Made by a program: the position numbers and the translations under genes. 64,000 nt of DNA. Origin: Chrysophaeum taylorii (lineage: Eukaryota > Sar > Pelagophyceae > Pelagomonadales > Pelagomonadaceae). Below, one piece after another: positions 6,513 through 28,670 of the stretch (its first letter is position 1; each line of letters begins with the position of its first letter). The notes under the pieces are model-generated. The model was given only the letters and a program-made list of their open reading frames with translations, was not told the DNA's origin and made no database searches. The DNA is taken from the NCBI GenBank assembly GCA_029834535.1, contig JAQMWT010000330.1:124001-188000 (forward strand), given 5' to 3'.

Positions 6513-6983
6513 TTCCTAAAACCACTGAACGCCTTGCGTGCTCACACCACCGCACTCCCCGCGCTGGTGGCGGTCGCAGGCACCTCAGCGGACACCCGCG
6601 AGTCTGTCTCTATTGAGCGTTTTAGCCACTTTGGGCTCAGTCCGCCAGGTGGCCGACAATGTCCCCTCCAGTTTCCGGAATCCTCCACGGAAATGGGAAA
6701 AACTGGACATTTCCGGACTACAGAATCGACATTGAACAAAGGAAATTCGTGAAGTTAGCTTGCTTTTCAACCAAAGGATTATTTGATTCATAGCTGTTTA
6801 TTCTATCAACAGGATATTTTTATGGCTTTAATCTTTAAAAGGGTACACAACGGGATCAATTAAAGGTAAACGGCCTTTGCTGCGCTGATAAAATAACCTT
6901 ATAAGGATCAGCCTAAGCTTCTGTTCGCGGCGGCTTGTGCAAAAAGCTACACCTAACGAAGGCACCACCACCCGACGACGAAA
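6513..6983. other. AT-richer intergenic region upstream of the receptor gene
   Basis: There is no supported ORF. The segment 6750-6930 is distinctly AT-richer than the flanks and probably holds the promoter and 5' UTR of the plus-strand receptor gene. No TATA-like or Inr element can be assigned with confidence. Confidence 0.4.
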
Positions 6984-9900
6984 ATGTGGGCGGTGGTGGT
7001 ATTCTTGGTTTTGGCCAGCAGCGTGGCGGGAGGCGTGGAGTGGAGGACGGTGAAGTTGGGTGTGATGGCCGAGGCGAGGTACGAGCTCGCCGATGCAGTG
7101 AACCTCGCCAAGCTCGCGATGAAGCACGCCAACGACGACGGCGTGCTCGCGGCGTGGAACCTAAGCGTCGATATGAAGTTCTGGAACACCGCGGGGTCGA
7201 TTGGGGGGTCGCTGGGTGGCGCGATCGAATTGCTGAAAGACCCGTGGGTCGTGGGGATCATCGGCACCGAGGACTCGGCGACGACCGAGTCGGCGGCGAA
7301 GTACGCGAGCTTAGCGGGGAGACCGATGCTGTCTCCCGGCGCGACGGGGCCCGAGCTCATCAAGAAAGAGGGCATGGAGATGTTGTTCCGGTCGTCTTCG
7401 ACTCAAGAGCGCAAGTTCAAGGTGATAGCACAGCTCGCGAGGCTGTACGAATGGAGTCAGGTCGGGGTGATCGCGGCGCGCGACGAAAACGGCTACGAAG
7501 GGGTCGACGTTCTCGACGACGAACTCAACGCTGTCGGGTCGTCGGTCGCGGCTATCGGGATGTTCGAGGTGGAAAACGGTAGAGCCATCGACGTAAAGAC
7601 GGCTCTGCGCGGGATAGAGGCGGTAGGTGTCCACGTTTACGTGTTTCTGTCCACGGACTACGCGAGAGACGTGCTCGACGGACTCGAGGATCTCGGAATT
7701 TTGGACGGTCCGAATGCCTTCGTGGGCTTGGATTTGACGGATGTTCCACGGTCGAAGCGCCGGTTGCTGAAGGGCTGGTTGTTTGTGAACGTCGTGGATT
7801 CAAGTGGTGACGACGTAAGGCTGCGCTTCGACGAGGCGTACTCGGAAGATACGACGAGGTGGAACTGCTCGCGTGGGGTGCAGAAGCTCTTTGGAAGTCT
7901 CGCGGAGGAGCCCATTATCTGGGACTTCGCGGCGGACCCCTCGAACTACCCGGACGCGAGTCCGAAGATTGTGTCATCGGACGTCATGGGCTGCGTCGAC
8001 GGCGACGGCGACCCGGATTCCGACTCGGGCGAGTACTACTACGACGCCGCGTGGATATTGATTTTCGCGCTGCGACGAGTTCTGGAGAAAGGGGGCGACG
8101 CGACTGATGGAGAGGCGCTCCGCGCCGAGCTCCTCGAGACGGACTGGTGTGGGATACGGTCTTATTACTCTTTCGATCCCAAGTCGCGAGACGCGGTCAC
8201 GCGGCTGCGCGTAGTAAACGTCGTCGTCGAAGAGGGCGGCGCCGAGGACGTCGTCACGGTATTCGAGACGACCAACCAATTGAACTACAATACCTCCCAG
8301 GCGAACGAGAGCGACTGTTTGGTAGCGGTCGCCAACGTTACGTGGTCGAACGGAAACACCCGCCCGGGCCCTCCGAGAGACGGCCGCCAGGTCTCGGCGT
8401 TTAATAGCTACTACTCGAATGCGCTCGAAGTGTACCAGACGCTCGGGAACGCGTCGTCGGTAACCGTCCACCTCTCGTCATTCTTCGAAAGAACGCCCCT
8501 CTATGGCACGCTTTTGATCTTAGAACTTTACGACCTCAGCACTGACAGCAGCAGCGAAGCTCGTGGTGGTACCCCGCGGCTGGACGACGACGACGACGAC
8601 AGCCTAGTCGCGTGGACGGACACGTACGTTGCGCCTGGCGGCGTCAACGAAGCGCAAATCCCTATTTTCCTTCCGGATTGGGGCACCTACGAGTTCGTCG
8701 CGAGAGACGCGTACGACGGAGGCATCGCGATTGGCGACACGCAGCTCCCGATCGCCGTCACCCAGCCTACCTGCTACGAAGACGACGAGGGTTACGACGC
8801 AGCGGCGGGCGGCTGTGTCAAATGTGCCGCGGGCCGCGAGAAGGCCGACAACGTCTGTACCGACTGCCAGCCCGGCAGGTATCGCGCCGACGGCTCGGCC
8901 GGGTCCTCCTGCCTTGTCTGCAGCGAAGAAGAGTACCAACCCGAATATGGCAGCACAACCTGTGAGCAGTCTTCTTCTGTATCATCATCATCATCATCAT
9001 CATCATCGACGAGTCACTCTCCTCTTCGCGTGTGCCCTCAGGTCTCAGCTGCCCCGCGAACAGCACGCGACACGATTACGAATACCAGGTCGAGTTGGCC
9101 GCTAGGGGCGTCTTGTTCTCCGAAATCGATTACTCTATCGGCGTATCGATCGAACAGTGTCTCTGTAAAGAAGGCTACTACGCGAGCACAGGACCCTGGA
9201 AGCGAGACGACGTCGTCACCGCAAAGACTGCCGGCGCTAGCTGGGGCGACAACGGCACGAGCTGCGAGCCGTGTCCGACGGGAGGGTATTGTAGTGGCAA
9301 GACGTACCCGCCCGCCAACAAAAACCAATACTGGGGCGACCCTCACAATCCCGTTGCTTTTGAGCTCTGCGATCAAGCGCGCTGCGCTCGCAACTATCGA
9401 TGCAAGGCGGGGTACCGCGGTCGCCTCTGCTCGCGACTCCGCACGTACAAGTTCTTCACGATTGGGGGTATCACGCGACATTGCTGGTTTCAAGAGAAGA
9501 AGAAGAAGAATGCGCTCAGTTTTTTTGTTTACCTTTTGCTCTTCTGCGCTATCCTCTCCCTGTGGGTTTGGGTTAACCTTTTCCTCGACTCCTTGGCGAT
9601 CACTATCTTCGTGCAGCACATCCAGTCGATCGCTATCATTTCGCAGTTTGGAGTCGATTACCCGCGACGTCCGATTGCCTACTTTGGTAAGCTACCACCG
9701 ATATACGTGTCGAGACGTGTACACTCATCCCGTATGCCGCAGGCGTTCTTTTCAACTTCGCGCTCTTCGACGCCGACATCGTCACGCCGTCGTGCATCTT
9801 CAAGTGGTCGCAGCTGTCGACGTTCTACCTCTCCATCTTCATCGCTCTCCTCGGACTCCTTTTCTACTGCGTGCCGCTCGCCGAGCTCGCCCACAACCTA

Positions 9901-11868
9901 ATCCGCAACGATTCGCTATGCCGCAGCTACTTTGGTGGTATTCCGCCATGGCGCGTTCCATACCGTCTGTACATCATGCTGCGGGTCGAGTTTTCGTACT
10001 ACCGTGGCTCGGTCGGCAAGGAGGCTGCGACCGCGACGGCGAACGCGCTGTCGCTGCTCGACGCGATCTATCCAAACCTGTGCTTCAATTTCATGCGCAT
10101 GCTGACTCGAGACAAGGATACAGCTTCTACTGCCTCGTATACGCGAATGGACGCGACGCTGCGGTGGGGGTCGCCGCGACACGTTCCAGCGGCTTTCATT
10201 GCCTTGGTTGGCTGCGTGCTCGTCGTCGTCGGCCTGCCTGTCGGCATCTTCGTCACTATCCGCAACAACTACAATTTGTACCACGGCGTCCACGAACCGC
10301 CATCGCTTGCGAGGTGGGGTTGGGCCTACGCCGATTTCCGGAGCCCCTATCACGCGACGGCCGTGATGTCGCACCTCGAGACGGTCGTGTTCTGTACCAT
10401 CGCGACAGCATTCCAGGACAGCGCGCTTCAGACCGTCCTGGCGCTCACCACGGCTACTGCCGCCTTTGCCTACGCTGCCACCGTTCGGCCGTTCGTGGAG
10501 TTTCGCTACAATATCTTCTTCGTCGTCGCCAAGCTCGCGGTGCTTATCTTCGTCGTCGCCTCGGTCCTCCTCTCGTCGCGTCGTTACCGGACAGCGTGGA
10601 CTGTGATCACAGCCGCAGAGCTCTTCCTGTTCTTCGTCGTGACTGTCAATATCTACGTCATGGAGCGTGCTGAGGGCCGCAAGCGCGCCGAAATCAAGTC
10701 GGGTATGGGGCGCGTCCTTAATCTGCCCACGCAGAGAATGTCGTTGAGGTCGCGGCCTTCGCTCGTCGTCAACGCAATGATTGGCGAGGTCCGTCGGTTT
10801 TCCAAGCGGCGGCGGTTTTCGTCGTCTTCACTTTTTCTCGGGCAGCAGGACGATAACCTACCACCGAAGGTGGTAGAGGCCCAAGCTGCTGCTGGTGCTG
10901 ACGAAGACGTCGAGAAAGCAGAGGCGACGCGTGGCCACGAGCTGGCGGCGACCGCGCGTGCAGTCAAGAACCTAACACGCGTGGTCGAGCCATGCTGCAT
11001 GATGGCGTGGTGCAACAACCCCGGGAGCCAGACCGACGATAAAAAAGACTTCGTGCAGCGCGTCGCACGGTCGACGGAGACGCTCATCAGCGCGTCGTCG
11101 CCGCTCTCGCAGTACTCTGCCGACCGCAAGGCGGCATTTTGGCGGTCCCTGACTGAAAACTATCGGGGTATCGTGGGCTTCGTCGCGAACACGCTCACCT
11201 ACAACGAGCGCGTTTTCGTCTTTGGGGTATTGGTGAAATTGCAGCGATTTCTCGGGAACCTGACTCTCGACGAGCTCGCCCTCGACGATAGCATCGCCGA
11301 AAGCCACCGGGCTTCGGTGTTATACTGCATACTCTCGGCGCCAGCCGGCGATGACTCGCTGACCCAATTCTTGCGCGACGCACTCCAAGCCCTGAAGCAA
11401 CGCGGCCCACCACCACCATTCTGCGTCGAGCGATCCATCTTTCTCCCGGCTTCGATCCGCTGTTACGTTCGAGGAAGAAACGACGGGCCGCACGACGCCG
11501 AGCTCTTGCAGGAGAAGACGTCGCGCGAAATGATAGACGAACAAAAAATGCAACGCAACCAGGCAATGCTCGCCTACGGCCGCATGCGCAGGGCTGCCAC
11601 GCTCAGACATCTCAGCCCACACCACAAGCGCAAGATCGTCGAGTTCGAGTACCGGGAAGAGGCGGCAATATTTTACATCGAGAGGTTCAATCACGAGGCT
11701 AGCTCGTTGCACGAAGTGATGATGGCCGAGCACCCAGTTTCGCCGGACGTCGACGATCGAACGGCGGCTTGCGAGGAAGAAGGAAAAATCCTCGACGAGC
11801 AGCAGCAGCGGAAGCACGACAACGACGTCTCCTCAAGAGACAGTCGTTTTCGTCTATCGGACCCGTAG
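6984..11868 (+). CDS. Receptor-like multi-pass membrane protein: periplasmic-binding-type ectodomain, Cys-rich stalk, TM bundle
   Basis: I model three exons: 6984-8961, 9042-9686 and 9743-11868 (introns of 80 and 56 bp, GT-AG, frame kept), giving about 1582 aa. It starts with a signal peptide (MWAVVVFLVLASSVAGG). Residues about 20-440 resemble the type I periplasmic-binding fold used as ligand-binding ectodomain in family C GPCRs and natriuretic receptors (GIIGTEDSATTESAAKYASL; WSQVGVIAARDENGYEG). A cysteine-rich stretch of the GCC2/GCC3 or TNFR-like type spans about 600-800 (CVKCAAGREK, CTDCQPGRYRADG) and is joined exactly across intron 1. About seven hydrophobic segments follow from residue 816 to 1185 (for example FFVYLLLFCAILSLWVWVN). 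A 400-residue basic and acidic tail has no recognised domain. A role in sensing an extracellular small molecule is inferred. The TM part looks more like the TRP-like proteins of stramenopiles than a classical 7TM. Confidence 0.8.
8962..9041 (+). other. Intron 1 of the receptor-like gene (80 bp)
   Basis: Donor gtgagcag and acceptor tgccctcag. It contains a (CAT)n run at about 8979-9007. Splicing joins ...GSTTC to LSCPANSTRHD and restores a Cys-rich motif that reading through would lose. Confidence 0.85.
9687..9742 (+). other. Intron 2 of the receptor-like gene (56 bp)
   Basis: Donor gtaagc and acceptor atgccgcag. The join gives PIAYFGVLFNFALFDADIV, continuing the membrane domain in frame. Confidence 0.85.
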
Positions 11869-16406: not shown

Positions 16407-18098
16407 TCAGCCCCAGGTGACGCAGTGCATCTCATCGGTGTATCCATCGACGATGGGATTGGGCTGCGGGAGCAGCATCGTCGCGAGGAAGGCGAGGTCT
16501 TTCGGGGGCGCGAGGAGCTGCTTCTCCCTTTGGTCGCACGGAAGACGAAGTACAGCATCCTCCTCGCAGGAGACGATGGCTCCCTCGGAATCGAGCGTGA
16601 GGTAAACGGTCTTGGTGTTGGCGGTGGCGAGGGTGCGCCAGCGCTCGTCGCCGGCGGCGCCGTAAAGGCGGCGGTAAAGGAATTTCGCGGGTTGAGCTTG
16701 CTTCTTCGCCGTCTCGAGGAGGCGTCGGAAGCCGAGGTTGGAGAGGGTGTGGGGCATGAAGCGGGGTGGGGGCTCGGCGCGCGGCAGGGTCGTGTGCTTG
16801 GCGGCCCAGATATACTCGCTCGGGACGCCCGCGACGTCGCGGACGAGGCGGAGCGTCCGGGGAGACGCGTGCTGGGCGAACGCGTTGCCAATCCAAGTCA
16901 AATTTGTAGCCTCGATCCTTACGACCCCGCCGGCGAAGGCGTTCGCGGGCGAAGCGTCGACGAGCCAGCGCTGGAGGAGGGCGGTCGGGAGGAGGTAGTG
17001 GTTGCTGCCGCCGTGCATCCGGAGCTGGCTAAACATGAGGCAACCGCCCTTCTCTTGGAGACCGAGCACGGGGAACGCAAAAGCATACAAAATCGCAGCC
17101 CCCACAAAAATCCTGAAGGCCTTTTTGTTGGGGTGGGAAGAATCGCGTTCTTTCTTCTCAAAAGTGGCGGCGGCGGCGGCGCGGCAGAGGACGACGGAGA
17201 GCGCCGCGTAATACGCGAGCTGGAGATCGCGGCCCGCGCCTTGGACGGTGGACACGGCGTCGCGGTGGAAGGGGTCGACGATCGCCAGCGCGATCGCGGG
17301 GGCGACCGCCGCGACCGCCAGTACCAGAGGTTCTGCGAGGGTTTCGGTTACTTGGGCGGGCATGCAGAAGAAGAGGCGCGTGCACGTGGTGACCCCGAAG
17401 CTCGAAACGTTCGAAGGCGGCGGCGTGAGACCGATGAGCAAATGGAAAGAAACCGTCGTGAAGACCCCGATCCGCACTGCCCACGGGGTTTCGATGACGT
17501 GGAGCACGGGGACGAAGGCCTCCACCAAAAGCGTGAGCCAAGGGGCGGCGGAAGCGACGAATTCGACGATCGTTTTGACGACGGAAGATTCGAACAAAAG
17601 ACGATCGGGGAGGTATTCGAAAGGTTGGACGCAGAATATCGAGGCGCACGAATACTTTGGGTGGCAGAAGGAGGTGTTGAGCTTCCAGAAAGCGCTCGCA
17701 AAGTAGAACACGGCGAGCTGCCACCGAACGATTTCGGCGCACCGGTCGACGACCTCGTTCTCGTCGGATGCCGAAAGGCGCCACTTCCGCGCGCGTAGGA
17801 GGGCCCACAAGACGGCGAGGTCCATCTGGGTCGCCCAGAGCTGGCTGTTCCCCATCCAGGGACCCTTCCGCGCGTTGGTGACGATGCGCACCGCCAAGGC
17901 GAGTCCCGAAACGAGGGTGTTGTAAGGCACGGCCGCGGCCGCCGCGAAAAGCCCCAGGAGCACCCAGACGGGCTGCGCCTGGACACTATCCTTGAGCGCC
18001 GTGCCGGGCACAAACCCGGAAATCACCCGAAGCGCGTTGGCCGCGCACCACAGCCGCACGTACGCAGCGAACACCTTCTTCTTCGGAAGTGACGTCAT
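16407..18098 (-). CDS. HTTM / vitamin-K-dependent-carboxylase-like multi-pass membrane protein
   Basis: The protein is 563 aa from MTSLPKKK (18098); the frame stays open to 18176. It has several hydrophobic segments, and the core WQLAVFYFASAFWKLNTSFC followed by a loop and VEFVASAAPWLTLLVEAFVP matches the HTTM fold (horizontally transferred TM domain, related to gamma-glutamyl carboxylase). LRMHGGSNHYLLP lies in the second half. Eukaryotic algae have many HTTM proteins of unknown substrate, so no reaction is claimed. Its ATG overlaps the ATG of the divergent hydrolase-RCCR gene by two bases, so at least one true start must lie elsewhere or the two transcripts must overlap at their 5' ends. 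Its stop is 10 bp from that of the solute-binding protein gene. Confidence 0.72.
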   Translation of the reverse strand: MTSLPKKKVFAAYVRLWCAANALRVISGFVPGTALKDSVQAQPVWVLLGLFAAAAAVPYNTLVSGLALAVRIVTNARKGPWMGNSQLWATQMDLAVLWALLRARKWRLSASDENEVVDRCAEIVRWQLAVFYFASAFWKLNTSFCHPKYSCASIFCVQPFEYLPDRLLFESSVVKTIVEFVASAAPWLTLLVEAFVPVLHVIETPWAVRIGVFTTVSFHLLIGLTPPPSNVSSFGVTTCTRLFFCMPAQVTETLAEPLVLAVAAVAPAIALAIVDPFHRDAVSTVQGAGRDLQLAYYAALSVVLCRAAAAATFEKKERDSSHPNKKAFRIFVGAAILYAFAFPVLGLQEKGGCLMFSQLRMHGGSNHYLLPTALLQRWLVDASPANAFAGGVVRIEATNLTWIGNAFAQHASPRTLRLVRDVAGVPSEYIWAAKHTTLPRAEPPPRFMPHTLSNLGFRRLLETAKKQAQPAKFLYRRLYGAAGDERWRTLATANTKTVYLTLDSEGAIVSCEEDAVLRLPCDQREKQLLAPPKDLAFLATMLLPQPNPIVDGYTDEMHCVTWG

Positions 18099-20454
18099 GC
18101 AGCTGCTGCTCGCTGCGCTCACGGCTCTCCACAGGAGTGTTCCAGTTCCGCGGGACGATGGCGTTATCTTGACCAAGGTCGTTTACCCCTTCGAAGGAGC
18201 CCCCGTTGTCCTCTTCCTCTCGGGCGCCAATTGCCCGCACGAGAGCTACTCTTGGCTGGCCACGAAGCTCGCAGCAGAGACGGGCACGGCTGTGGTCCTC
18301 GCTTCGTACGTCGACGAAACGGTCGGTTGCTTGCTGTCGGTTCCCTACGACCTCTCGCGGCTCGCGTCGCTCGACCTTTACAAAACGCAAACCCCGTCGG
18401 CGGCGGGCATTCGCGCGATCCTCGACGATCTCGCCCGGCTCCCGCTCGATATCTCGAGGGTCGCGATTGGCGGACACTCGACGGGCGGCCGCTCCGTGCT
18501 GGACCTGGTCGCCTTTGGGTGCGAAAACACCTTTCCCGAGATCAGGTGCGCCTTCACCTACGGCGCATCTTTCGTGAACGGGCCGGCGGCGTCGGGATTT
18601 GCCTCGCCCGGAACCGTCGTGCGATTCGACGCGACGCACGGCGCCTCGGTGCCGCTTTTGCTGGTGGGCGGCGACCGCGACGCCGTCAGCGCGGCGCTCT
18701 CGGAGGACGGCGACGCGACCGAGACGCTAAGGCGGACGATCGAGGAGGCCCGGCCCGACGACGCGCGCCTCGTCTTCTTGAAGGGCGCGACCCACATGGT
18801 TCTCTGCGACCCTATCCCCGTCGGTTGCGTGGATTCTTCGCCGCCGATGGAACCCAAGGCGGCGGACGAGGCGCGCGACGCCTTCGCCGATCTCGTCGCC
18901 GCCTTCCTCTCGGATCACGGCGTCCTTTCGGCGGCGGCGGCGGGGTCGTTCGAGACCGTGCTCGCCGAGAGGTCTCCGGAGATCGCGTGGCGCGACGCGT
19001 CGCCGATGGCTGCGTCGCGCGAGGATCTCGAAACCCTCGTGCGCGACGCGCAGCTGGCCGTCGCCGAGCTCGGTTCTCAGAAGAAGAAGAAGAACGACAA
19101 AGATATCCTCCGCGTCAAAGCGCGACGCCACAGCCAGCTCGGTACCTTCATGGCCTCAAAGCCCTCGCTCGAGGTCGTCGACGGCGGCGTCAAAGTCGTC
19201 ACCGCGCACTGGTTCCTCGAACCCGAATGGACCTCCTTCGACCGGCCGCTCGGCGACGGAAACGCGTGGACCTACGCGCGCGAGGCGGGCCCGCCAACCC
19301 TCGCCATAAAGCTCAAGCGCCGCGACGCAATCCGAGGTGACGCCGAGCGTCCCGACCCCGACGCGGCGACGCGGGTCAACCGGGCCGTGCTCGCGTTCGC
19401 GCTCGGGGAAGAGGCCGCGCGAATCCTCCGAGCCGCGCGCGTCGTCGTTTTGGAAGAGGAGGATCGCGTCCTCGAGGACGATCCCGACGGTCCGTTTGGG
19501 AACAAGGGAGGCAAGTACATCGAGTCGAGCTTGACCGTTTCGAGCTCGGTGCGCTCTCCGACCATCCTGACGCCCCTCGACGGCGTGCCCGAGCCGTTCC
19601 GCGCGCAGCACTACGTGAAAGTCTTGAGCCCCGCGTGGCTCCGCGAGTGGCTCGTCCGGCGCGATAAGGATGATTCGCGAGTCCTCTCCGAGGCCGACGC
19701 GTGGGCGGCGCTCCGAAGCGCTTTGAACGCGGCCGTCGCCCGAGTCGTCTCCGCGCTCCGGCTCGCGCCCTCGGCCCGCGTCCCCGAGGACCACCAAACC
19801 TGGACCGCCGGGTCCGTCCGCGGCACCATCGCGGCCTGGGAGGGCGGAAAGCTCGTCGACTGGGCGGTCCGCTACTTGAACGAAGAATTAAAAAAAACGG
19901 ATGATTCCAATATTATTATTTCGGCTGGCGAGGGCCTCAACGTATGGCTCTCCGACGCCACCGACTGCCCGCACCTCGCGTGCTACGTGAGCGTCCGCCG
20001 CGGCACGGCAACCCTGATTCTCGACCACGTCGCGCGCCGCGACGCGGCCGCCGACGCCGAGTACCGCGACCGCTTCTACGCGACGAGTCCGCCCGTGCTC
20101 GAGCGCGCGTCGCTCGCGCCGCTCGCGAGCAAGGACCCGCGCGTCCGCGCCGCGCGGTCCCCGAACGCAGTTTCCCTCACGGCCGCCGCCACCAGCGCCG
20201 ACGACGTCGCCGCCATGGCGGCCGCCCTCAACGCGCACGTCGACGAATTCCTCCGTCGCCTCCGGGAAGAAGAAGAAGAGTCAAAAACGACGACAACGGA
20301 CAACGACGAAATCCGGCGAAGGGACGCCGCGATACGCACGGCGCTCCGGGACCACGAGGCCGACGCCGGCCGCCAACTCTTCGGCTCGGAGGACAACAAC
20401 AACAACAGGGCCCTCGACCTCGCCAACACGATGGCAGGCTTCCATCGTGAGTGA
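18097..20454 (+). CDS. Fusion protein: alpha/beta-hydrolase (chlorophyllase-like) plus C-terminal RCC reductase domain
   Basis: The protein is 785 aa from MQLLLAALTALHRS (18097); an upstream in-frame start at 17992 would lie inside the divergent gene. Residues about 20-280 are an alpha/beta-hydrolase with nucleophile elbow GGHSTGGRSV (Ser128), a long lid-free core and a C-terminal GATHMVLCDP (His233), in line with chlorophyllase/PAF-hydrolase-like enzymes. Residues about 300-520 are unrecognised. Residues about 532-785 match red chlorophyll catabolite reductase: DCPHLACYVSV, TATLILDHVARRD, a YRDRFYAT block, VRAARSPNAVSL, and the C-terminal RRRDAAIRTALRDHEADAGR followed by QLFG, recalling the RRDKSFRRK...MFG end of plant ACD2/RCCR. 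In plants RCCR reduces the PaO product in the chloroplast. Combining hydrolase and RCCR in one chain is not an arrangement I know. Function is inferred. Confidence 0.78.
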   Translation: MQLLLAALTALHRSVPVPRDDGVILTKVVYPFEGAPVVLFLSGANCPHESYSWLATKLAAETGTAVVLASYVDETVGCLLSVPYDLSRLASLDLYKTQTPSAAGIRAILDDLARLPLDISRVAIGGHSTGGRSVLDLVAFGCENTFPEIRCAFTYGASFVNGPAASGFASPGTVVRFDATHGASVPLLLVGGDRDAVSAALSEDGDATETLRRTIEEARPDDARLVFLKGATHMVLCDPIPVGCVDSSPPMEPKAADEARDAFADLVAAFLSDHGVLSAAAAGSFETVLAERSPEIAWRDASPMAASREDLETLVRDAQLAVAELGSQKKKKNDKDILRVKARRHSQLGTFMASKPSLEVVDGGVKVVTAHWFLEPEWTSFDRPLGDGNAWTYAREAGPPTLAIKLKRRDAIRGDAERPDPDAATRVNRAVLAFALGEEAARILRAARVVVLEEEDRVLEDDPDGPFGNKGGKYIESSLTVSSSVRSPTILTPLDGVPEPFRAQHYVKVLSPAWLREWLVRRDKDDSRVLSEADAWAALRSALNAAVARVVSALRLAPSARVPEDHQTWTAGSVRGTIAAWEGGKLVDWAVRYLNEELKKTDDSNIIISAGEGLNVWLSDATDCPHLACYVSVRRGTATLILDHVARRDAAADAEYRDRFYATSPPVLERASLAPLASKDPRVRAARSPNAVSLTAAATSADDVAAMAAALNAHVDEFLRRLREEEEESKTTTTDNDEIRRRDAAIRTALRDHEADAGRQLFGSEDNNNNRALDLANTMAGFHRE

Positions 20455-20512
20455 TCCAGCTGGGGTAAGGATTTTCAAATCTTCGTCAACTCTTCCGAAG
20501 AAAAAAAAAAAC

Positions 20513-21733
20513 ATGATCATCATCTTCTTCTTCTTCGTGTTGTTGGTGCCTTGCGCGGCGGGGCTTCACGTAGGGGTGGTGGGGGGCGGCCTCGGGGGGC
20601 TCGCCGCGGGGATCGCCCTGCGGAAGGTGGGGTGCGAGGTGAGCGTGCTGGAAAGAAATCCGAAATTCTTGAGCGAGGGCGGCACGGGGCTGACGTTGTG
20701 GCCCAACGGGCTGTCGGCGCTGTGGGCGATCGACGAAGATCTCTACGAGGAAATTAGCCGCGTCGGGACCGAGATCGACGTGGTCGAGGTGACGGACGCC
20801 TCGGGCGCGAATCCGTTGCCAAATCCAACGGGCGACCCGCGGCGCTTCCGAGAGACTTACGGTCGGCCGATGCGCAACGCGCGGTGGTCTCGTCTTCACC
20901 AGGTCCTCGCGGCGCGGTTCGCCCAGGTTGGGGGATCGGTCCTCTACGACCGGCGTCTCACGTGGCTCGACGACGAGGGCGCGGCCCGATTTGTGAATAG
21001 CGACGGAACAGAAACTCGCGAATTAGCGTTCGACGCGATAGTCGGGGCCGACGGCCTCAAGTCCAGGGCTCGGGAGCTCCTGGTTGGCGACGCGCCGCGC
21101 GACGCCGGCCGCACCATCTGGCGCGCGGTGATCCCCTTCGATTCTCGCGTCGTTCCGGAAAAAGTGTGTTCTATGAGTGCCGGCGCCGGAAAGGTCGGCT
21201 TCGTGACCGACGTCGGCGACGGCTTGCTCTACTGGTCTGCTTTTGCGACCGACGAGGCGAGGACGGTGCTGCAGGAGGAGGACGTCAAGGCTTTGCTCCA
21301 CGCCGAGTTCGATGGCGTGGCCAAGCTCCGCCCGTGCATCGAGATGACGCCGGCCGAGCTCATTTTGGAGCGAAGGGTTGCGGACCGCGCGCCCCTCGTC
21401 GACGCCAAAGGTGACCCCGCCATTCCGTGGGGGGGGCGCGTCACGCTCCTCGGGGACGCCATGCACGCGATGATCCCTTCCCTCGGCCAGGGCGCCAACT
21501 CGGCCTTCGAGGGGGCCTACCGCCTCGCCGCCAACGTTAAAAAAACCAAGTCGGCCGGCGCTCTCCCCGAGGCGCTCCGCGCCTACGAACGCGACCAGAT
21601 GCGCCGCGTCTCCTGGATCGTCGAGTCCTCGGCGCGCCAGGGCCGGACCGTCTACGAGGATAAGGACGAGTTCATGCGGGCCCAGCAGGCGGCCCAGGAT
21701 TCCATGTGGGGTCTCACCTTCCCCCCGCTCTAA
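20513..21733 (+). CDS. Secreted or plastid-routed FAD-dependent monooxygenase (aromatic-hydroxylase/zeaxanthin-epoxidase-like)
   Basis: The protein is 406 aa. The chosen start (20513) gives a strong signal peptide MIIIFFFFVLLVPCAAG, immediately followed by the FAD motif LHVGVVGGGLGGLAAGIAL. The group-A flavoprotein monooxygenase features are present: a central DAIVGADGLKSRAREL (GD/DG motif) and GDAMHAMIPSLGQGANSAFE near residue 315. It resembles the salicylate-hydroxylase/UbiH/zeaxanthin epoxidase superfamily but lacks the FHA and lipocalin parts of zeaxanthin epoxidase. The signal peptide fits entry through the ER, as for proteins of complex plastids, though no Phe follows the cleavage site. 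It lies 58 bp downstream of the hydrolase-RCCR fusion on the same strand. A substrate among tetrapyrroles or carotenoids is speculative. Confidence 0.82.
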   Translation: MIIIFFFFVLLVPCAAGLHVGVVGGGLGGLAAGIALRKVGCEVSVLERNPKFLSEGGTGLTLWPNGLSALWAIDEDLYEEISRVGTEIDVVEVTDASGANPLPNPTGDPRRFRETYGRPMRNARWSRLHQVLAARFAQVGGSVLYDRRLTWLDDEGAARFVNSDGTETRELAFDAIVGADGLKSRARELLVGDAPRDAGRTIWRAVIPFDSRVVPEKVCSMSAGAGKVGFVTDVGDGLLYWSAFATDEARTVLQEEDVKALLHAEFDGVAKLRPCIEMTPAELILERRVADRAPLVDAKGDPAIPWGGRVTLLGDAMHAMIPSLGQGANSAFEGAYRLAANVKKTKSAGALPEALRAYERDQMRRVSWIVESSARQGRTVYEDKDEFMRAQQAAQDSMWGLTFPPL

Positions 21734-21759
21734 CTTAAATTAAACTAAAATCAAATCAA

Positions 21760-21830
21760 ATCAAATCGGCAGCATGATCATAATAATAAGAATAACCACT
21801 AGTTTTTGTATCGGTCGGTCGGTCGGTTTG

Positions 21831-21866
<36 letters not shown>

Positions 21867-21942
21867 GGTCGGAAAAAAAAATTATCATCATCATCATCAT
21901 CATCATTAAGAAGGATGGCACCACCACCACCACCACCACCAC
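21760..21942. repeat. Simple repeats in convergent 3' spacer
   Basis: (AAATC)n-like units lie near 21745-21768, (TCGG/TCGGTC)n at about 21810-21870, (ATC)n at about 21886-21907 and (CAC)n at about 21918-21942. They separate two convergent stops and produce spurious Thr-Glu and Val-Ser ORFs. Confidence 0.9.
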
Positions 21943-22995
21943 CTACAAGATTCGCGAGCCGGTCACGAGGGTCGCCCAAACTTGCTCCTTGTCGAGGTCC
22001 ATGTCATCCAATCCTTGTCGCAGCTCCTCGATCGGATCTGCCGGATCGTGCTTGATCGCGGAGCATATCGAGCTGTTGTCCGCGGTGGAATCGATCGTAA
22101 TGCAGTCGAAATCGTCGTCGTCGTCCATGCGAACGACGTTCTTGTTCTCGTCGTAGACGATCGGAGGCTGGGGGGAGCAAAAATGATCGCGACCCTTGGG
22201 GGGCGCGACCTCCTCGACAAACAGGAGGTCCGTTTTGGGCTCGTCCTCGATAATATGATGGTGGTGCTCCGCGTGTTTCCGGAGATCCTGAAGGGTGGGC
22301 GCGCGACCGACGAGAGTCGGATGATCCCTCGCCATCGCCCGAACCTCGTCGCACTCCTGGAGCCGCTGGGCGCATAGTTGCGGACTGTGGAGACTCTCGG
22401 TCCGTGGGTCGAGGTTGTTGTTGTTGTACTTGTCGAGGACGCCCAAACCCTCGAGGCTCCTGAGCGTGTCCTCGCGAATCGGCCCGTGGACGCCGACGTC
22501 GACGCACACGAAACACATACAATCGCAGGTCCTCGCGACATTGAGCCCCGCGATCCAGACCAGCTCGCCGTTGTCGTCGCGGCCCCCGAAGGGCCGCCAC
22601 CGCGCCCCGACCATACCCCCGCTCTGTTTGGCCTCCTCGGGCGCGTCGGGATAATCCTTCAAAGAGCCCGCGTGAAACGCGTCCGACGGGTTCGGGTGGA
22701 GCGCGAACCCCGTAAGGTCCACGTCGTGGCCGACCATGTACTGCGACGCGTTTTCGGTCGCCGAGAAGATTATAACCGAAGCGATCGACGCCCAGTTTCC
22801 GTCGGCCGGACCGGCCTCGACAACCCAGATTCCGAGATGTGGCGACGGTTGTGCCACGTATCGGTTCATCAGTAGGCCCTTCTTCTTCTTCCTCTTTGGC
22901 TTTCTCCTCTTCAATGCGACGTCCTCGTCGTACGCGTATCTTAACTTGGCCGCCGACGACGACGACGGCCCGGTGATCGTCCCAGCAGGCGCCAT
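21943..22995 (-). CDS. Hypothetical protein, 350 aa, no recognised domain
   Basis: The N-terminus (MAPAGTITGPSSSSAAK) is followed by a basic patch KRRKPKRKKKKG that could be a nuclear localisation signal. The central part is composition-balanced and looks like a real folded domain (YMVGHDVDLTGFALHPNPS; WIAGLNVARTCDCMCFVCV, with a cluster of four Cys). The second half carries His-rich (HAEHHHHI) and Asp-rich (MDDDDDFD) stretches, both coded by short repeats. It is a clean single ORF between the FAD monooxygenase (convergent) and the RCCR-like gene (same strand). I could not match it to a family. The CDCMCFVC group might bind metal, but that is a guess. Confidence 0.6.
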   Translation of the reverse strand: MAPAGTITGPSSSSAAKLRYAYDEDVALKRRKPKRKKKKGLLMNRYVAQPSPHLGIWVVEAGPADGNWASIASVIIFSATENASQYMVGHDVDLTGFALHPNPSDAFHAGSLKDYPDAPEEAKQSGGMVGARWRPFGGRDDNGELVWIAGLNVARTCDCMCFVCVDVGVHGPIREDTLRSLEGLGVLDKYNNNNLDPRTESLHSPQLCAQRLQECDEVRAMARDHPTLVGRAPTLQDLRKHAEHHHHIIEDEPKTDLLFVEEVAPPKGRDHFCSPQPPIVYDENKNVVRMDDDDDFDCITIDSTADNSSICSAIKHDPADPIEELRQGLDDMDLDKEQVWATLVTGSRIL

Positions 22996-23114
22996 GATGT
23001 CTGGCGTGCCTGTTGTACCACTGTTGAACTACGTTCCCACCGACCGTTGAAGTTGCGAAATGTCACAAACAAACTGATGCTGTATACTACGCACGAGATC
23101 CTCGAACCTCACCT

Positions 23115-24137
23115 TCAACTCCTCAACATTCTATCGAGATCCGTTGAGGAGGACCCACCACCAACTACGAGGGGGGTGTCGCCGGCGAGGAGATCTTTTG
23201 TCAGGGGAAAGTAGGAACCGAAGACGAGGGCGCGGTTTTCGTTGTCGGGCGACGACTCCGCCGCCACGCGCCGCACGACGGCGTCCCGCCGCGCCATCGC
23301 CTTCTGTTCCAGCGGGTCCAACAAAGGGGGGCGCGACGAGGTCCTCCCGTCATCACCGTCTTTGTCGTCTTTGTCGTCGTCCTCCGAAAGCGCCCTTCCC
23401 CACTGGCCCGCGAGCTCCATGCAAGCGGCCTTGATCTCGGCGAGCGCCGACTCGTCGGTGCTGTCGAAGAAGACCCGGACCCCGCTGGGCGCGAGGGCGG
23501 CCCGCGCGTAGGGCGACTTGGAGACGTACGGCACGAACCGCGAATCGTCTTGCATCAGCTTGAGACAAGTTTCGGAAAATCCATCGTAGTAGGTCTCGCA
23601 GTAGCGGGCGTCGCACGCGACGTCGACCCGAGGCACGCATTCGAGTCGCACGAATAGTTGCTCGGGATTTGCCGGAGATCCCGACCCAAAGTACAACGTC
23701 CAGTTCGGCGCGTCGGTGTCGACGCGCGGCCACAGCGACACCCCACAAAAGAAGGCCCCGACCCTGCGGTTCAGCGTCCGGTACGCCGTGCCCCACGACA
23801 GTTTCTCGTTCGCGACGACGCCGTACGACGCGGCCGTTTCGGACATGGCCGCCGCAAACTCGGCCTCGGCCTTGGGGAGCGCGGCAAGGGTTGCCTCGGA
23901 GGGACCCGGCGTCACGAACGCCTCCAACGCACCCTCGAACGCTCGTGTGTCGATCCGCGGGTCTCCCAGACCCGCAGCCTCCACTGCCTCCCGCACGGTC
24001 TCCCACGCCACAACGTAACGCGACGCGAACGGCTCGGGGGCCTCGCCGACGTACCTCGAGAATAGCAAATCGGACTGGGGACCAAACTGGAGGGCCTTCG
24101 CGGTCACCAGGCTGCCGATGATGATGACGAACAGCAT
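23115..24137 (-). CDS. RCC reductase / bilin-reductase superfamily protein with signal-like N-terminus
   Basis: The protein is 340 aa. It starts with a short signal sequence (MLFVIIIGSLVTAKA). The core WPRVDTDAPNWTLYFGSG, then LFVRLECVPRVDVACDARY and CETYYDGFSE, followed by DSRFVPYVSKSPYARAALAP and SGVRVFFD, follows the order of plant red chlorophyll catabolite reductase (APN.., LVLILDLPHRKDL.., Y.KEYY.., SP..). The C-terminal MARRDAVVRRVAAES resembles the RRDKSFRRK end of RCCR. The phrase VSLWPRVD also recalls the LFPR-type motif of ferredoxin-dependent bilin reductases (HY2/PcyA), to which RCCR is distantly related, so a bilin reductase is the alternative. Products would be open-chain tetrapyrroles in the plastid. 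It is one of two RCCR-type genes within 6 kb. Confidence 0.75.
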   Translation of the reverse strand: MLFVIIIGSLVTAKALQFGPQSDLLFSRYVGEAPEPFASRYVVAWETVREAVEAAGLGDPRIDTRAFEGALEAFVTPGPSEATLAALPKAEAEFAAAMSETAASYGVVANEKLSWGTAYRTLNRRVGAFFCGVSLWPRVDTDAPNWTLYFGSGSPANPEQLFVRLECVPRVDVACDARYCETYYDGFSETCLKLMQDDSRFVPYVSKSPYARAALAPSGVRVFFDSTDESALAEIKAACMELAGQWGRALSEDDDKDDKDGDDGRTSSRPPLLDPLEQKAMARRDAVVRRVAAESSPDNENRALVFGSYFPLTKDLLAGDTPLVVGGGSSSTDLDRMLRS

Positions 24138-24392
24138 TTATTTCAGTCCAGTCACTCATTGAACTATGACTACATTCTGACTCACGACTCCTTCTGCTGA
24201 GTCGACGGGACTGCCACGTCCTCATTGATTCGCTTAATAATTTGCCAAAGTGTTGCGGGTACTGGTCAGAGTGTATATGCTCGTTTTACGTCCGTTGGAT
24301 CTTCCGGATACTATTTTTTGCCTCACGATCGATCCTTCGCTCTCGAAGGAAGGACGGAAGGAAGGAAGAAAAAGGATTGGTTGGCGAGAGCA

Positions 24393-25310
24393 ATGTACAC
24401 GCATCGCGCCGTGAGCTACGTGGTCGAGGGGACGAAGGTCGCCGGAGTATTGTTCGAGCCTGCCGTAAAGAAGGCTACGACTGGCATCGTGGTTCTGGGG
24501 CCGATTGGGTATGTCAAGGAGCAGTCGCCAATGCAGTACGCGAGTCGGCTGGCGATCCAGGGGTTTACGACATTGATATTCGACCCGCGCGGCCACGGTG
24601 AGTCGGAGGGTGAGCCTCGACGCGTCGAGGATCCCGACGCCAAGTGCGCCGAGGTGATCGCCGCGGCGAAGTACCTCGAGAGCTCGTGCGCCGAGGTCTA
24701 CGGCCTCGGAATCTGCCAGGGTGTCAACTGGATGACGAAGGCTGTCGTGAGCGAAGGTTCGCCCCTCTCCAAGGTGGCTCTTGTGGCCGGGAATTACCTG
24801 ACACCCCAAGTTAACGCGATCATGACGGGCGGCAACCTCGAAAAACGTCTCGCCGAAGCGGACGCTGCCCTCGCGGCCTTCGAAAAAGACGGAACCCTTA
24901 CCTATCGGCCCATCGTCCCCGGGGGACCGGATGACATGGTCCCCTTTCTCCCGCGCGCAGAAATCGGCACGTGGTACAACGAGTGGGACACGACCGCGTC
25001 AGCTCGTTCGAGTTTCCAGCGATTCCGCGGAAAATGGGAGAACCGCCTCGCAATTCACTCCGAGGCCAAGCTCTGGCGCCACGACGTCACCCAGGACTTC
25101 CACCGCCTCACCAAGCCGACACTCCTCATTCACTCCGACGCCGCCGCCACTGGACCCAAGGTCCCGCGCGTCCTCTTCGATGCCATCGCCGCCGAAAATA
25201 AAACCCTCGTCTGGCTGCCCGACGGTGAGTCTCAGTTCATGTTCTACGAGCATCCTCTCACCATTGATACCTGCGTCTCCCACGTCGTCGACTTCTTTTC
25301 TCGCGTTTGA
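24393..25310 (+). CDS. Alpha/beta-hydrolase with Cys nucleophile elbow
   Basis: The protein is 305 aa from MYTHRAVSYVV (24393); the frame is open upstream, but that part is Lys/Arg/Gly-rich and 5' UTR-like. The fold markers are LGPIGYVKEQSPMQYASR (oxyanion strand), TLIFDPRGHGESEGEP and the elbow YGLGICQGVNW with Cys108 where most members have Ser. GICxG-type elbows occur in dienelactone-hydrolase-like members, so the Cys may be genuine. KPTLLIHSDAAATGPKVP and the final FMFYEHPLTIDTCVSHVV give the acid/His region. There is no signal peptide. It sits in the RCCR/PaO gene block and might act on phytyl or methyl esters, but nothing in the sequence proves this. Confidence 0.8.
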   Translation: MYTHRAVSYVVEGTKVAGVLFEPAVKKATTGIVVLGPIGYVKEQSPMQYASRLAIQGFTTLIFDPRGHGESEGEPRRVEDPDAKCAEVIAAAKYLESSCAEVYGLGICQGVNWMTKAVVSEGSPLSKVALVAGNYLTPQVNAIMTGGNLEKRLAEADAALAAFEKDGTLTYRPIVPGGPDDMVPFLPRAEIGTWYNEWDTTASARSSFQRFRGKWENRLAIHSEAKLWRHDVTQDFHRLTKPTLLIHSDAAATGPKVPRVLFDAIAAENKTLVWLPDGESQFMFYEHPLTIDTCVSHVVDFFSRV

Positions 25311-25536
25311 TTTTGTTGCTTACCACCGCCTAACCGAACCTAGCGCGTGCAGCACCTTACCTTTGAGAGTATCTTTTTTTTTTAATCTTCTCGTGCATCC
25401 GGATGCGGCGGCGCTCAGAATCAAATCGACGACGACACGCTCACCATTTCGCAGCACCGTATTCTAGGATGACGCCACTCACTGCAAAATTATACGAACT
25501 CCCGTAGCTAGCTTGATGATTAAGGATCCCGCGTCG
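25311..25536. other. Convergent 3' spacer
   Basis: About 225 bp between two convergent genes; a poly-T run lies at 25374-25383. No other feature is seen. Confidence 0.4.
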
Positions 25537-26079
25537 TCAATATGATGGCGTGGCAGAAGGGCGTGGGGTCTTTCGGCTCGTAATGACGTTTCTGTCGACG
25601 ACGACGACGACGACGACGACTGGCTCGAGTGACAGACACCCCGCGTTGACAATATCGTCTTGAATCGAGGAAATCGACGTGCAGCTGTAGCCCGACACTA
25701 CGGAGCGACCGTCGAGGCGAGCCGAACACACGGGTCGTGACAGATGGCTGCCGACCGGCTTCCCGATCATTGACGAGATGGTGGCAAGCATTTTCGCGTT
25801 CCTGCGCATCTCGTCTGGCGCGTAGCCGCCAGGAAGCACTGGGGAGTCGACGATGCCGAGGTCGTCGATCTGCACGTCAGATTTTACCGTCGCTCCTATC
25901 TTCCCCGTGTACTTGTGGCCGGCCCCGTGCTCGCCGACGACAAGGCCGCCTTCTTCCTCGAGCCTCGTCTCGGGATATAGGATCTCTGCATCTTCAAAGA
26001 TGTCGGCGACGAAGATGGCAATCGTTTTCCCCGCCAGCCTGCCTGGAGGGAAGGGGCGCGTCGAGAAGAACTCGACCAT
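25537..26079 (-). CDS. DJ-1/PfpI-like protein, degenerate
   Basis: From MVEFFSTRPF (26079) the protein reads about 180 aa; the frame is open to 26178. KTIAIFVADIFEDAEILYP, then PVLPGGYAPDEMRRNAKML and VSGYSCTSISSIQDDIVNAG are clear PfpI/DJ-1 family segments, ending DRNVITSRKTP. The usual nucleophile elbow (A-I-C-H-G-P after GKPV) is replaced by VGSHLSRPVCSARLDG, so the catalytic Cys-His pair looks lost or displaced. A (GTC)n run has inserted about eight Val residues before DRNV. After TSR the expected C-terminus (PKDPTPFCHAII) is found in another frame, so a late frameshift is likely. It could be a decaying gene or a divergent non-enzymatic member. Confidence 0.65.
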   Translation of the reverse strand: MVEFFSTRPFPPGRLAGKTIAIFVADIFEDAEILYPETRLEEEGGLVVGEHGAGHKYTGKIGATVKSDVQIDDLGIVDSPVLPGGYAPDEMRRNAKMLATISSMIGKPVGSHLSRPVCSARLDGRSVVSGYSCTSISSIQDDIVNAGCLSLEPVVVVVVVVDRNVITSRKTPRPSATPSY

Positions 26080-26840
26080 TTTTGAGCGAGCGGTGGCGTG
26101 TTCCTCCTCCGGACGGACGACCGACAAAAATGGCTGCTGCTGCTGCACAAGCAAGCAGCCCGAGAACCAAACCACCAAGCAGCAGCCAATTTGTGAAACA
26201 CTTGGTGGGTCTCTCAGCCAGCCCCCGCGGATGGTGACAGCATGCTGGTCTCACCACCGACGGCCGGTAGCACGCTGGACTCGTCAGCAGCGCCCAGAAA
26301 GAAACGACACCGAAAGAAAGACATGGGGTCCCATCATCAACCAAGCAATCGCATCGCGGAATCCCATTATCAACCAAATTCGATCAAGGGCTCATCACGG
26401 ACCCATGAAATGACGGCATGCGGCAACAGAAATGGAATCCCATCATCAACCAAATTCCGTCAACGACTCATCTTGGACCCATGAAGTGAGGCATGCGGCA
26501 ACAGAAGTGAACCATCAGTGTTGCATCAAGGGGATATTAATAAAGCAATCATGAGAGACGAATCGCTGCTTTTTGAACCAAGGACGAACGATCCGAAGAA
26601 GAAGTATTGAAGATCGCATAGTGTCTTGTCCCACCACCTCATCGACAACAATCTCCACTGGGGGGGTGGACTGCTCATAAGAGGGGGGTTTACTTTGCTA
26701 AGGGGGGTTTGCGAAAGCAGTAAGGACCTGCATCGTCCCGCCGTCGCGCACTCCGGCCTATCGGTCGGTCTGAAGATACAAGAAATTGAGGCGCAGAAAA
26801 AGAAGAAGAGACTCGCATCGCATCGCATCGCATCGCATCA
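26080..26840. repeat. Intergenic region with a roughly 75-bp tandem repeat and (GCATC)n
   Basis: Units starting GGAATCCCATCATCAACCAA and ending GGCATGCGGCAACAGAA occur at about 26361-26431 and 26432-26504, with a partial unit near 26326. A short (CATCG)n run lies at 26814-26838, next to the Rieske gene's stop. No gene is supported between the DJ-1-like start and 26841. Confidence 0.75.
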
Positions 26841-28536
26841 TCAAGGGGCGTGCTGGAGGGCTTTGGCTTCGTCGGTGTAGACGAATCGTGCCTCGAGGCG
26901 GGTGAGGGCGGCGTGGGCGCGGTGCGCGGCCGTGCCGAGCGCAGCCGCGGCAGCGAATGCGAGCATCTGGACGAGGAGCGGCCCTCCTGCTCGGATCGAA
27001 AGCGCGGCGAGATGGGCGACCGAAAGAGCGACCGCGGGCAGACCGAGCCAGTTAGGAATGCCGGCGTTGAGCGCGGGGCCGACCACGTAGGCTGTCGCGA
27101 GGCGCGTCGCCAGGTATGCCGAGAGAGCGAGAAGGACGAGCGCGGACGGGAGCGTCGCCGACGCAGAAAAGAGGGCGAGGGCGGGGGCGAGGGTCTCGAT
27201 CGTCTTGGCGCGGTCCTTGAGGGTTTTCGTGAGCTCGAGGGCTTCGGAGCAGACCTCGCACTTGGCCGTGTGTTGGGCGTAGCGATCGAGGAGCGCGCGC
27301 TTGTCGTGGTCGAGCTTGGGCGGGTTTAAAGGGGAGCGCCAGGGCATGGAGGGCGCGCACGCGTCGAGTCGCTTCCGGAGCCAGACGACAAACTTGTCGG
27401 CGCTCGTGGGCATCTTGTAGTCGCGCCACGCGCCGCCGTAGCCGTCGAGGCGTCTCGCCTGGAGGCGGTGTTCCTGGCCAACCAAAAATTCCACGTCCTG
27501 GTCGAAGACGACGTTGTTCTCGAGGTGCTTGGCGACGAGAGCCGCGCGCGACATTTTTGCCTCGGTCCTGAAGTTGCGGCCGCGGCGCACGAGGACGCGG
27601 GACCGGCCGCGCGCGACGGGTACGACGTAAAACGCAGCGACAGCCTGGCCAGTCGGAAGGTCGAAACTATACGTGAGGCGGCCGGGGGCCTCGAACCGGA
27701 CGCGCTGCGTGAGCGTCTTGCTCTCAAACCCCAAGCGGCTCGAGCCGTGGAGCGCGACCTCGACCTCGCCCTCGAAGCTGAGGGGATGAGGCTTGTCCTC
27801 GTCGGCCCTTAGGAGTCTCGTGGCCATGGGCCGCGCGAGGCTACGGTCGCCCTGGGACGTCCCGTGATGCGACACGGGGACGTGCGACGGATCGCACACG
27901 TTCTCCAGGAGCGTCGTGTAGTCGTACGGCAGGTCGCGCGCGTAGTCCTGAGTTGTGTGTTGATGGACGCAATAAAATTCGTGCAAACCAAACCTGCTCG
28001 TAGATCCAGCTCGGATCGTCGAACGCGTCAATCGTAGGTACGGGCGAATCGGTCGCCTTGAGCGCCACGAACACGATTCCCTGCCGTTCGGTGACGGCGT
28101 AGGCTGGAGCGCTCAGCCCAATGCCCGACGACCCTTCCAGCTGGGGCAACACGACGCACTTGCCGCAGCCGTCGAGCTGCCAGCCGTGATACGAGCACTC
28201 GATGCCCGTCGATCCGTTCTCGAGGTCGACGAGCCGTCCGTCGCTCAGAGGGGCGAGCCGGTGCGGGCACTCGTCGGCGAGAGCGACCACGTCGCCTTTG
28301 TCTCGAAACAACACCATCGGCCGTTCGAATACTTGGGCTTTGTAGGGTGTGTCCTTCCTAACCTCGTTCGAGAAGCACACGGGATACCACGCGGCGAGCC
28401 AGTCGACCGTCCTCGTCGCCTCTTCCTCGCCGATAACCGTCGCGCGCCGATGCGACGGGACTCGGGGAGTCGGTGTGTGCCGCACCCAGGCGCCGACGAC
28501 GACGACGACGACGAAAACCAAGAGGTCGATCATCAT
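26841..28536 (-). CDS. Pheophorbide a oxygenase-type Rieske non-heme iron oxygenase
   Basis: Two exons, 28536-27994 and 27947-26841, with a 46-bp intron, give 549 aa. The N-terminus is a hydrophobic anchor (LLVFVVVVVVGAWV). The Rieske motif is C90-P-H92 ... C114-SY-H117 (DECPHRLAPL; IECSYHGWQLDG). The mononuclear iron site spans the exon start: LLENVCDPSHVPVSHHGT, with N197, D200, H203 and H208. The C-terminal HTAKCEVCSEALE has the CxxC (411/414) that marks the PaO/TIC55/PTC52 group, followed by two TM stretches, as in plant thylakoid/envelope PaO. Plant PaO opens the pheophorbide a macrocycle to make red chlorophyll catabolite, the substrate of RCCR. Protochlorophyllide-a oxygenase (PTC52) or TIC55-like roles are alternatives, since the family cannot be split by eye. 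Its gene lies 4 kb from two RCCR-type genes. Confidence 0.87.
27948..27993 (-). other. Intron of the PaO-like gene (46 bp)
   Basis: Read on the minus strand, the donor is GAGCAG|GTTTGG and the acceptor CAACTCAG|GACTAC. Splicing joins SWIYEQ to DYARDLPYDYTTLLE, which is the continuous Rieske-oxygenase sequence. Both flanking ORFs lose homology where they cross this point. Confidence 0.9.
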
Positions 28537-28670
28537 CCCTTCGGCGGGTTATGTTGTTGGTTGAACCCGTACGTACATCTAGAGAGACAAATCGAATGTA
28601 GTAGTAGAGTGACGTCTCTTGGGCAAGTCCCAAGTTATTCGTAGTAGTTTAGAAGCAACAAGACACAATT

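Follow-up and report, generated by a model that had tools for sequence, protein, structure and literature searches.

Linked Genes of the PaO and RCC Reductase Families in the Pelagophyte Chrysophaeum taylorii: A Plausible Locus for Chlorophyll Breakdown

Introduction

The closest described system to the locus reported here is the PaO/phyllobilin pathway of land plants, with which it shares a pheophorbide a oxygenase (PaO)-type Rieske oxygenase and proteins of the RCC reductase (RCCR) family. The locus is a set of linked genes on both strands of the nuclear genome of the marine pelagophyte alga Chrysophaeum taylorii, and it occupies positions 18097 to 28536 (10.4 kb) of the window that we analyzed, a stretch of 64,000 nucleotides (GenBank assembly GCA_029834535.1, contig JAQMWT010000330.1, positions 124,001 to 188,000) to which all coordinates refer unless a gene from elsewhere is named. 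It departs from the land-plant pathway in that the genes are linked within 10.4 kb, one RCCR domain is fused to a hydrolase and to a further domain between the two, and other residues stand in place of Glu154 and, apparently, Asp291 of Arabidopsis RCCR.

The PaO family also holds CAO, TIC55, and PTC52, and in Arabidopsis each of the four is described as having a part in chlorophyll metabolism (PMC6898599); for PaO relatives in algae with red-derived complex plastids, the sections cited here report no demonstrated function (PMC6775998, PMC6898599). Single-alga cultures of ochrophytes reportedly do not accumulate cyclopheophorbide enols, and phyllobilins have been suggested as an alternative for organisms lacking these compounds (PMC6775998). 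No RCCR turned up among green algae in a survey from 2009 (PMC2716323). Our literature search on RCCR in stramenopiles found nothing, and one on PaO together with RCCR in algae or diatoms returned a single paper, on rice, from which we claim no wider absence from print. For the way in which algae with red-derived complex plastids dispose of phototoxic chlorophyll, this locus provides a concrete, testable candidate.

A linked set of PaO- and RCCR-type genes

We judge it slightly better than an even prospect that the locus consists of physically linked genes for opening and reducing chlorophyll-derived tetrapyrroles, drawn from the enzyme families of the land-plant PaO/phyllobilin pathway, and as read from the sequences chlorophyll breakdown is a plausible function for it. 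A preliminary description, made from the DNA letters alone, had proposed a chlorophyll-breakdown cluster of five genes in a protist nuclear genome. All five genes are present, the genome is indeed that of a protist, and the ends of the interval coincide exactly with two start codons (18097 on the plus strand for the fusion gene and 28536 on the minus strand for the PaO gene). Pfam searches gave significant matches to RCC_reductase in both predicted proteins and to PaO, Rieske, and FAD_binding_3; the lack of RCC_reductase and PaO hits that had been named as grounds for refutation did not occur. Overall, the earlier observation is confirmed and its interpretation is partly supported.

The PaO-family Rieske oxygenase (549 aa; 26841..28536, minus strand) is encoded in two frames separated by one 46-nt GT-AG intron (27993-27948), and its spliced product is identical to the deposited protein CTAYLR_000914. 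Each frame contributes one Pfam domain, Rieske (E 2.7e-22, 78.9 bits against a cut-off of 20.3) and PaO (PF08417; E 7.5e-14, 52.1 bits against a cut-off of 27). When CTAYLR_000914 was aligned with 13 chosen relatives, the residues of the Rieske motif CxH...CxxH (C90, H92, C114, H117) and of the mononuclear-iron motif D..H....H (D200, H203, H208) were invariant in all 14 sequences, as were C411 and C414 of a CxxC motif. The protein begins with a hydrophobic segment, and hydropathy analysis located further hydrophobic 19-mers toward the C-terminus, at residues 434, 481, and 504; a C-terminal CxxC together with membrane segments is typical of PaO, TIC55, and PTC52. A quick tree of 30 rows, comprising only paralogues from the same genome and environmental and cyanobacterial sequences, placed the protein with 11 sequences of environmental or MMETSP origin (support 100); the cyanobacterial groups and the four paralogues in the genome fall elsewhere. 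A PaO gene has also been reported from a giant virus that infects the pelagophyte Aureococcus (PMC5917014); our scan of viral contigs with the PaO alignment recovered no relatives.

The separate RCC_reductase protein (340 aa; 23115..24137, minus strand), which has a hydrophobic N-terminus, and the C-terminal domain of the fusion are both significant homologs of RCCR by profile, with Pfam matches to RCC_reductase (PF06405; cut-off 24.9 bits) of E 2.9e-7 and 30.4 bits for the former and E 9.7e-7 and 28.7 bits for the latter. A profile of the fusion's RCCR part also matched the Arabidopsis RCCR structures (E 8.4e-9). Structure prediction, proposed in the preliminary description for both RCCR-like domains, was informative for one of them: the separate protein is predicted to adopt the RCCR/bilin-reductase fold, and its best Foldseek match is Arabidopsis RCCR (2zxk, 2zxl, 3aga, 3agb, 3agc), with 17% identity in the fold alignment. 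The AlphaFold2 model of the 785-aa fusion, built from five rows, was poor (pLDDT 45.6, pTM 0.36), and we make no fold claim for its middle domain or its RCCR part; Foldseek with this model returned mostly general alpha/beta-hydrolases among the 50 rows listed, with wheat chlorophyllase (8fjd) at rank 34, a result that we do not use as evidence. RCCR outscored the ferredoxin-dependent bilin reductases (PcyA, PebA, HY2) by both sequence score and Foldseek E-value. The only match in the genome to the bilin-reductase family PF05996 lies elsewhere, on another contig (C262), and the RCCR-type proteins are therefore not simply a phytobilin enzyme.

Both the fusion and the separate RCCR have relatives in Aureococcus, whose protein tags point to different assemblies. 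A recent tandem duplication as the origin of the two RCCR types found no support, since each type clusters with Aureococcus and environmental relatives of its own (SH-aLRT 99 for either group) in a tree that carries a warning of long branches and that left out P0004 and P0005, whose ends run into unrelated-looking sequence, and P0015 and P0016, whose ends are divergent or cut. Cyanobacterial RCC_reductase proteins (16 open frames) belong to the same Pfam family and have near the C-terminus an RD...PDN-type motif resembling that of the separate RCCR; at 250 to 292 aa they are too short for the hydrolase-middle-RCCR fusion. Glu154 is present in 9 of these 16 rows and replaced by Ala, Val, or Gly in 7, while Asp291 is present in all 16. 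No viral relatives were recovered when viral contigs were scanned with the separate RCCR alignment or with the whole fusion. The third RCC_reductase gene of the C. taylorii genome is unlinked to the others (L006 1150-2274, G000:C398); in it His takes the place of Glu154 while position 291 is Asp, and its neighbors, named by reading frames, look to be of the NmrA and cytochrome P450 types.

A three-part fusion protein with a permuted relative

The fusion protein (785 aa; 18097..20454, plus strand) combines an alpha/beta-hydrolase (residues ∼1-280), a middle domain that we call the GPFGNKGG domain (∼305-522), and RCC_reductase (∼531-785). It is unique in the genome, its sole match being itself. 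We identified five relatives; in a single local alignment P0002 and P0003 each span 99% of the fusion, P0005 78%, P0004 68%, and P0006 34%. The hydrolase part fell below the Pfam threshold (Hydrolase_4, E 0.017, 14.9 bits against 27). It carries the motif GHSTGG (GxSxGG; GHSTGG or GHSSGG among the aligned rows), and S128, D195, and H233 are invariant in five rows that include three nearly identical ones; these residues are likely to form a catalytic triad of a kind generic to serine hydrolases. Chlorophyllase (PF07224; wheat 8fjd) is likewise an alpha/beta-hydrolase to which a Ser-Asp-His triad of this kind can be likened, but the chlorophyllase Pfam family misses the fused hydrolase.

The middle domain (19009..19662, plus strand; ∼210 residues) contains the motifs EPxW, RPL, DPxGPFGNKGG, and HYxK, with 59 positions invariant across the four sequences compared (the fusion and three relatives). 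It showed no significant match to Pfam (best E 0.17 in one of four members), no match to PDB sequences up to E 10, and no relative in a search of prokaryotes. The possibility that it represents a second RCCR/bilin-reductase copy gained no support, as profile comparison gave a probability of 0.1 with either RCCR alignment versus 97.2 between the two RCCR sets. In P0006, an environmental protein of 954 aa, the order of the modules is permuted (hydrolase 42-325, RCCR 396-637, middle 648-933). The three modules are thus kept together despite this rearrangement, which speaks for a shared function and for a substrate or pathway that they have in common.

The deposited protein CTAYLR_000910 (1169 aa) joins the fusion to the downstream FAD-dependent monooxygenase (406 aa; 20513..21733, plus strand), and we reproduced it exactly by splicing out 20447..20573 (plus strand), an implied GT-AG intron of 127 nt with a GTGAGT donor. 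If spliced, this intron deletes the hydrophobic N-terminus of the FAD enzyme. Because that piece carries the hydrophobic start and because P0002 and P0003 stop at the same place as the 785-aa frame, without an FAD part, it is more likely that the fusion and the FAD enzyme are two genes and that the deposited join is possibly a misannotation or an alternative splice form. The C. taylorii annotation drew on RNA reads and homology, and RNA reads are available as SRR22085759 (PMC10366177).

Linkage in the genome and in cyanobacteria

In the C. taylorii assembly that we searched (70.8 Mb, 697 contigs; the genome paper on strain NIES-1699 gives 71 Mbp, 702 contigs, and 10,810 genes [PMC10366177]), there are three RCC_reductase matches, two of them at the locus, and five PaO-family matches, one of them at the locus; these searches ran exon by exon, and copies split by introns could escape them. 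In a simulation that drew positions at random among 10,810 genes, two RCCR genes and one PaO gene fell within seven consecutive genes in 37 of 2,000,000 draws, an estimate that is post hoc and ignores tandem duplication. Weaker coincidences are less rare, with any PaO gene lying within 10.4 kb of any RCCR gene at a probability of 0.0044 and within six genes at 0.018.

RCC_reductase was detected in 14 of 386 cyanobacterial genomes and in 2 of 8 genomes chosen for a PaO-family gene. A PaO-family frame was present in the fetched flanks of RCCR at only 1 of 15 cyanobacterial loci (14 from the 386-genome search and one from the set of eight, together holding 16 RCCR frames; the stretches L096 and L099 are short, at 14.1 and 9.6 kb), on which basis we reject an inherited cyanobacterial operon; the algal linkage is therefore probably secondary. 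At the one positive locus, in Fischerella sp. PCC 9431 (L049 9971-17479), 5.4 kb separate the PaO-family gene from the RCC_reductase gene, and the intervening frames include one resembling histidyl-tRNA synthetase; the RCC_reductase gene runs into nitrilase-like and aldehyde-dehydrogenase-like genes, these two named by reading frames.

A putative pathway and its alternatives

If the locus serves chlorophyll breakdown, the serine-hydrolase domain of the fusion would remove an ester, either phytol or the C13 methyl ester, after which the PaO-type oxygenase, to judge from its family and intact ligands, would open the macrocycle of a pheophorbide-like substrate. The fusion RCCR domain, the separate RCCR, or both could then reduce the open-chain product with ferredoxin, and with Glu154 and apparently Asp291 altered, reduction may occur at another position or use another proton path. 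Tailoring of the product by the FAD monooxygenase and the second alpha/beta-hydrolase of the locus is speculative, as are pathway roles for the DJ-1 protein encoded nearby and for the middle domain. The FAD monooxygenase belongs to a different flavoprotein family than YUCCA10. The latter is a plant flavin monooxygenase that tailors late chlorophyll catabolites (PMC12930011). The preliminary description had also noted signal-like N-termini in several of the proteins; of the five, the FAD enzyme, the separate RCCR, and PaO have a clearly hydrophobic N-terminus, the fusion has a weaker one, and the second hydrolase has none. These segments suggest entry into the secretory or plastid route for at least three of the proteins.

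Several observations weigh against this reading of the locus. Glu154 and Asp291 of Arabidopsis RCCR, which we take to have an active-site role, are not kept: the former is Tyr in all 12 pelagophyte rows, and the latter, in a gappy column, is Glu in the fusion rows (4/4) or Ser in the separate rows (8/8). A literature search for papers naming RCCR active-site residues found none. Single-sequence searches of the PDB recovered only a weak RCCR match for the separate protein (E 0.014) and none up to E 1 for the fusion; for both proteins, significance came only with profiles. A chlorophyllase role for the fused hydrolase drew no support from PF07224, to which there was no significant match (E 0.11 in one of five family members), and the Mg-dechelatase SGR (PF12638), a further point of difference from the land-plant pathway, was not found in the genome in a search in which no control gave a match either. 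The genes are spread over both strands with unrelated-looking genes interspersed, and PaO is near RCCR in Fischerella only among the cyanobacterial loci. The permuted P0006 is a single environmental protein off a 3830-base contig and could be misassembled, and no PaO relative named Aureococcus appeared among the 120 matches listed (257 further matches exist, and many rows are nameless). Pelagophytes are not named among the ochrophytes tested for cyclopheophorbide enols in the cited section of that study (PMC6775998). Secondary-metabolism genes of C. taylorii are described as little clustered or not clustered (PMC10366177), which makes the neighborhood unusual and yet warns against assuming coregulation. 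What is new is strongest in two respects, the hydrolase-middle-RCCR fusion, which has a permuted relative, and its linkage with PaO. The case is weakest where it concerns the changed residues of the RCCR types, the putative chlorophyllase role, and gene order in relatives.

It is unlikely, though a prospect to be reckoned with, that the neighborhood arose by chance, a PaO-family oxygenase with another role, for example in biosynthesis like PTC52 or CAO, having come to lie near RCCR-fold proteins that bind or reduce another tetrapyrrole or are catalytically dead. The functional breadth of a family that includes CAO, TIC55, and PTC52 (PMC6898599), the five PaO-family members in the genome, the replacement of the Arabidopsis RCCR residues, the interleaved DJ-1 and family-less genes, the lack of linkage at 14 of 15 cyanobacterial loci, and the probability of 0.018 for a PaO gene within six genes of some RCCR are all compatible with such an origin, but the joint linkage of two RCCR genes and one PaO gene is improbable by chance, and one RCCR domain is fused to an esterase-like domain with which it is kept together in relatives. 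We consider it improbable that the genes instead make a modified linear tetrapyrrole that serves as a signal, sunscreen, or deterrent. The tailoring-type enzymes at the locus (the FAD monooxygenase and the Cys-type second hydrolase), the extensive secondary-metabolite gene set of C. taylorii (PMC10366177), and the altered active-site positions of the RCCR types would suit a pigment or secondary-metabolite cluster of this kind; however, the fusion and the separate RCCR both have relatives in Aureococcus and are not confined to C. taylorii, and no transporter or regulator family scored above its cut-off among the 30 nearby frames scanned, 14 of which gave no family match.

Bacterial contamination or misassembly is scarcely credible. 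The culture did yield twelve bacterial genomes, each assembled as a single contig (PMC10366177), and the described genes other than PaO are single open frames, but the 46-nt PaO intron matches the deposited protein, the locus sits on a contig of 572,948 bases, the flanking frames are eukaryotic in character (Sec1, WD40/WDR3-type, ANF receptor, RRM), relatives occur in Aureococcus, and PaO falls among environmental and MMETSP sequences, outside the cyanobacterial ones, with a support of 100. Beyond the favored interpretation, that of linked genes for tetrapyrrole opening and reduction, we also put forward a more specific and distinctly doubtful extension: a single polypeptide may combine ester hydrolysis, a tetrapyrrole-handling GPFGNKGG domain (perhaps removing Mg in place of SGR), and RCCR-type reduction, maybe spliced to the FAD enzyme as a four-part chlorophyll-processing enzyme of 1169 aa in an ochrophyte phyllobilin-type pathway. 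Were this so, the residue changes in the RCCR types would be the sign of a linear tetrapyrrole product that plants are not known to make.

Other genes and minor features of the window

The FAD-dependent monooxygenase has a strongly hydrophobic N-terminus by hydropathy and matches FAD_binding_3 (E 8.4e-19; frame 20429-21733). Its nearest NCBIfam models, PRK06847 and HpxO, scored far under their cut-offs, and its nearest paralogue is 30% identical. The second alpha/beta-hydrolase (305 aa; 24393..25310, plus strand) carries a Cys-type nucleophile-like motif, GLGICQG (G-x-C-x-G), and has one other match in the genome, at 30% identity; here the hydrolase assignment of the preliminary description is borne out by a significant profile match (Hydrolase_4, E 5.9e-9; frame 24201-25310), whereas for the fused hydrolase the match stayed below threshold. 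Its gene is divergent from that of the separate RCCR, with 255 bp between the start codons. Beyond what had been described before, the interval holds the conserved middle domain of the fusion, a predicted 350-aa protein (21943..22995, minus strand) with no Pfam match up to E 0.1, for which we claim no membership of the set, and a DJ-1/PfpI-family gene (25537..26079, minus strand; Pfam E 8.8e-17 for the frame, with NCBIfam PfpI models below cut-off), which may be a bystander.

The first ATG of a divergent 591-codon frame (16407-18182, minus strand) lies at 18096-18098 on the minus strand and overlaps the ATG of the fusion (18097-18099, plus strand) by two bases; at least one of these starts is therefore probably misset. 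The element TGACGTCA at 18090..18097 (no strand assigned) overlaps the fusion start codon, and a TGACGTC also occurs at 28610-28616, ∼75 bp ahead of the ATG of the PaO gene; together they are a weak lead. A bZIP-type link between the two starts was set aside, as the window shows no significant enrichment of TGACGTC (19 occurrences versus 13.5 expected, with 7 of 100 shuffles reaching 19).

Elsewhere in the window, a long receptor-like frame with an ANF_receptor ligand-binding domain occupies 6957-10673 (plus strand), and a further alpha/beta-hydrolase frame (51897-52793, minus strand; Abhydrolase_5, E 4.4e-23) lies at a distance of ∼23 kb from the set. Short direct repeats of 56 nt (86%) and 20 nt (95%) with a spacing of 75 to 76 are present at 26319-26509, in the stretch that separates the DJ-1 gene from the PaO gene.

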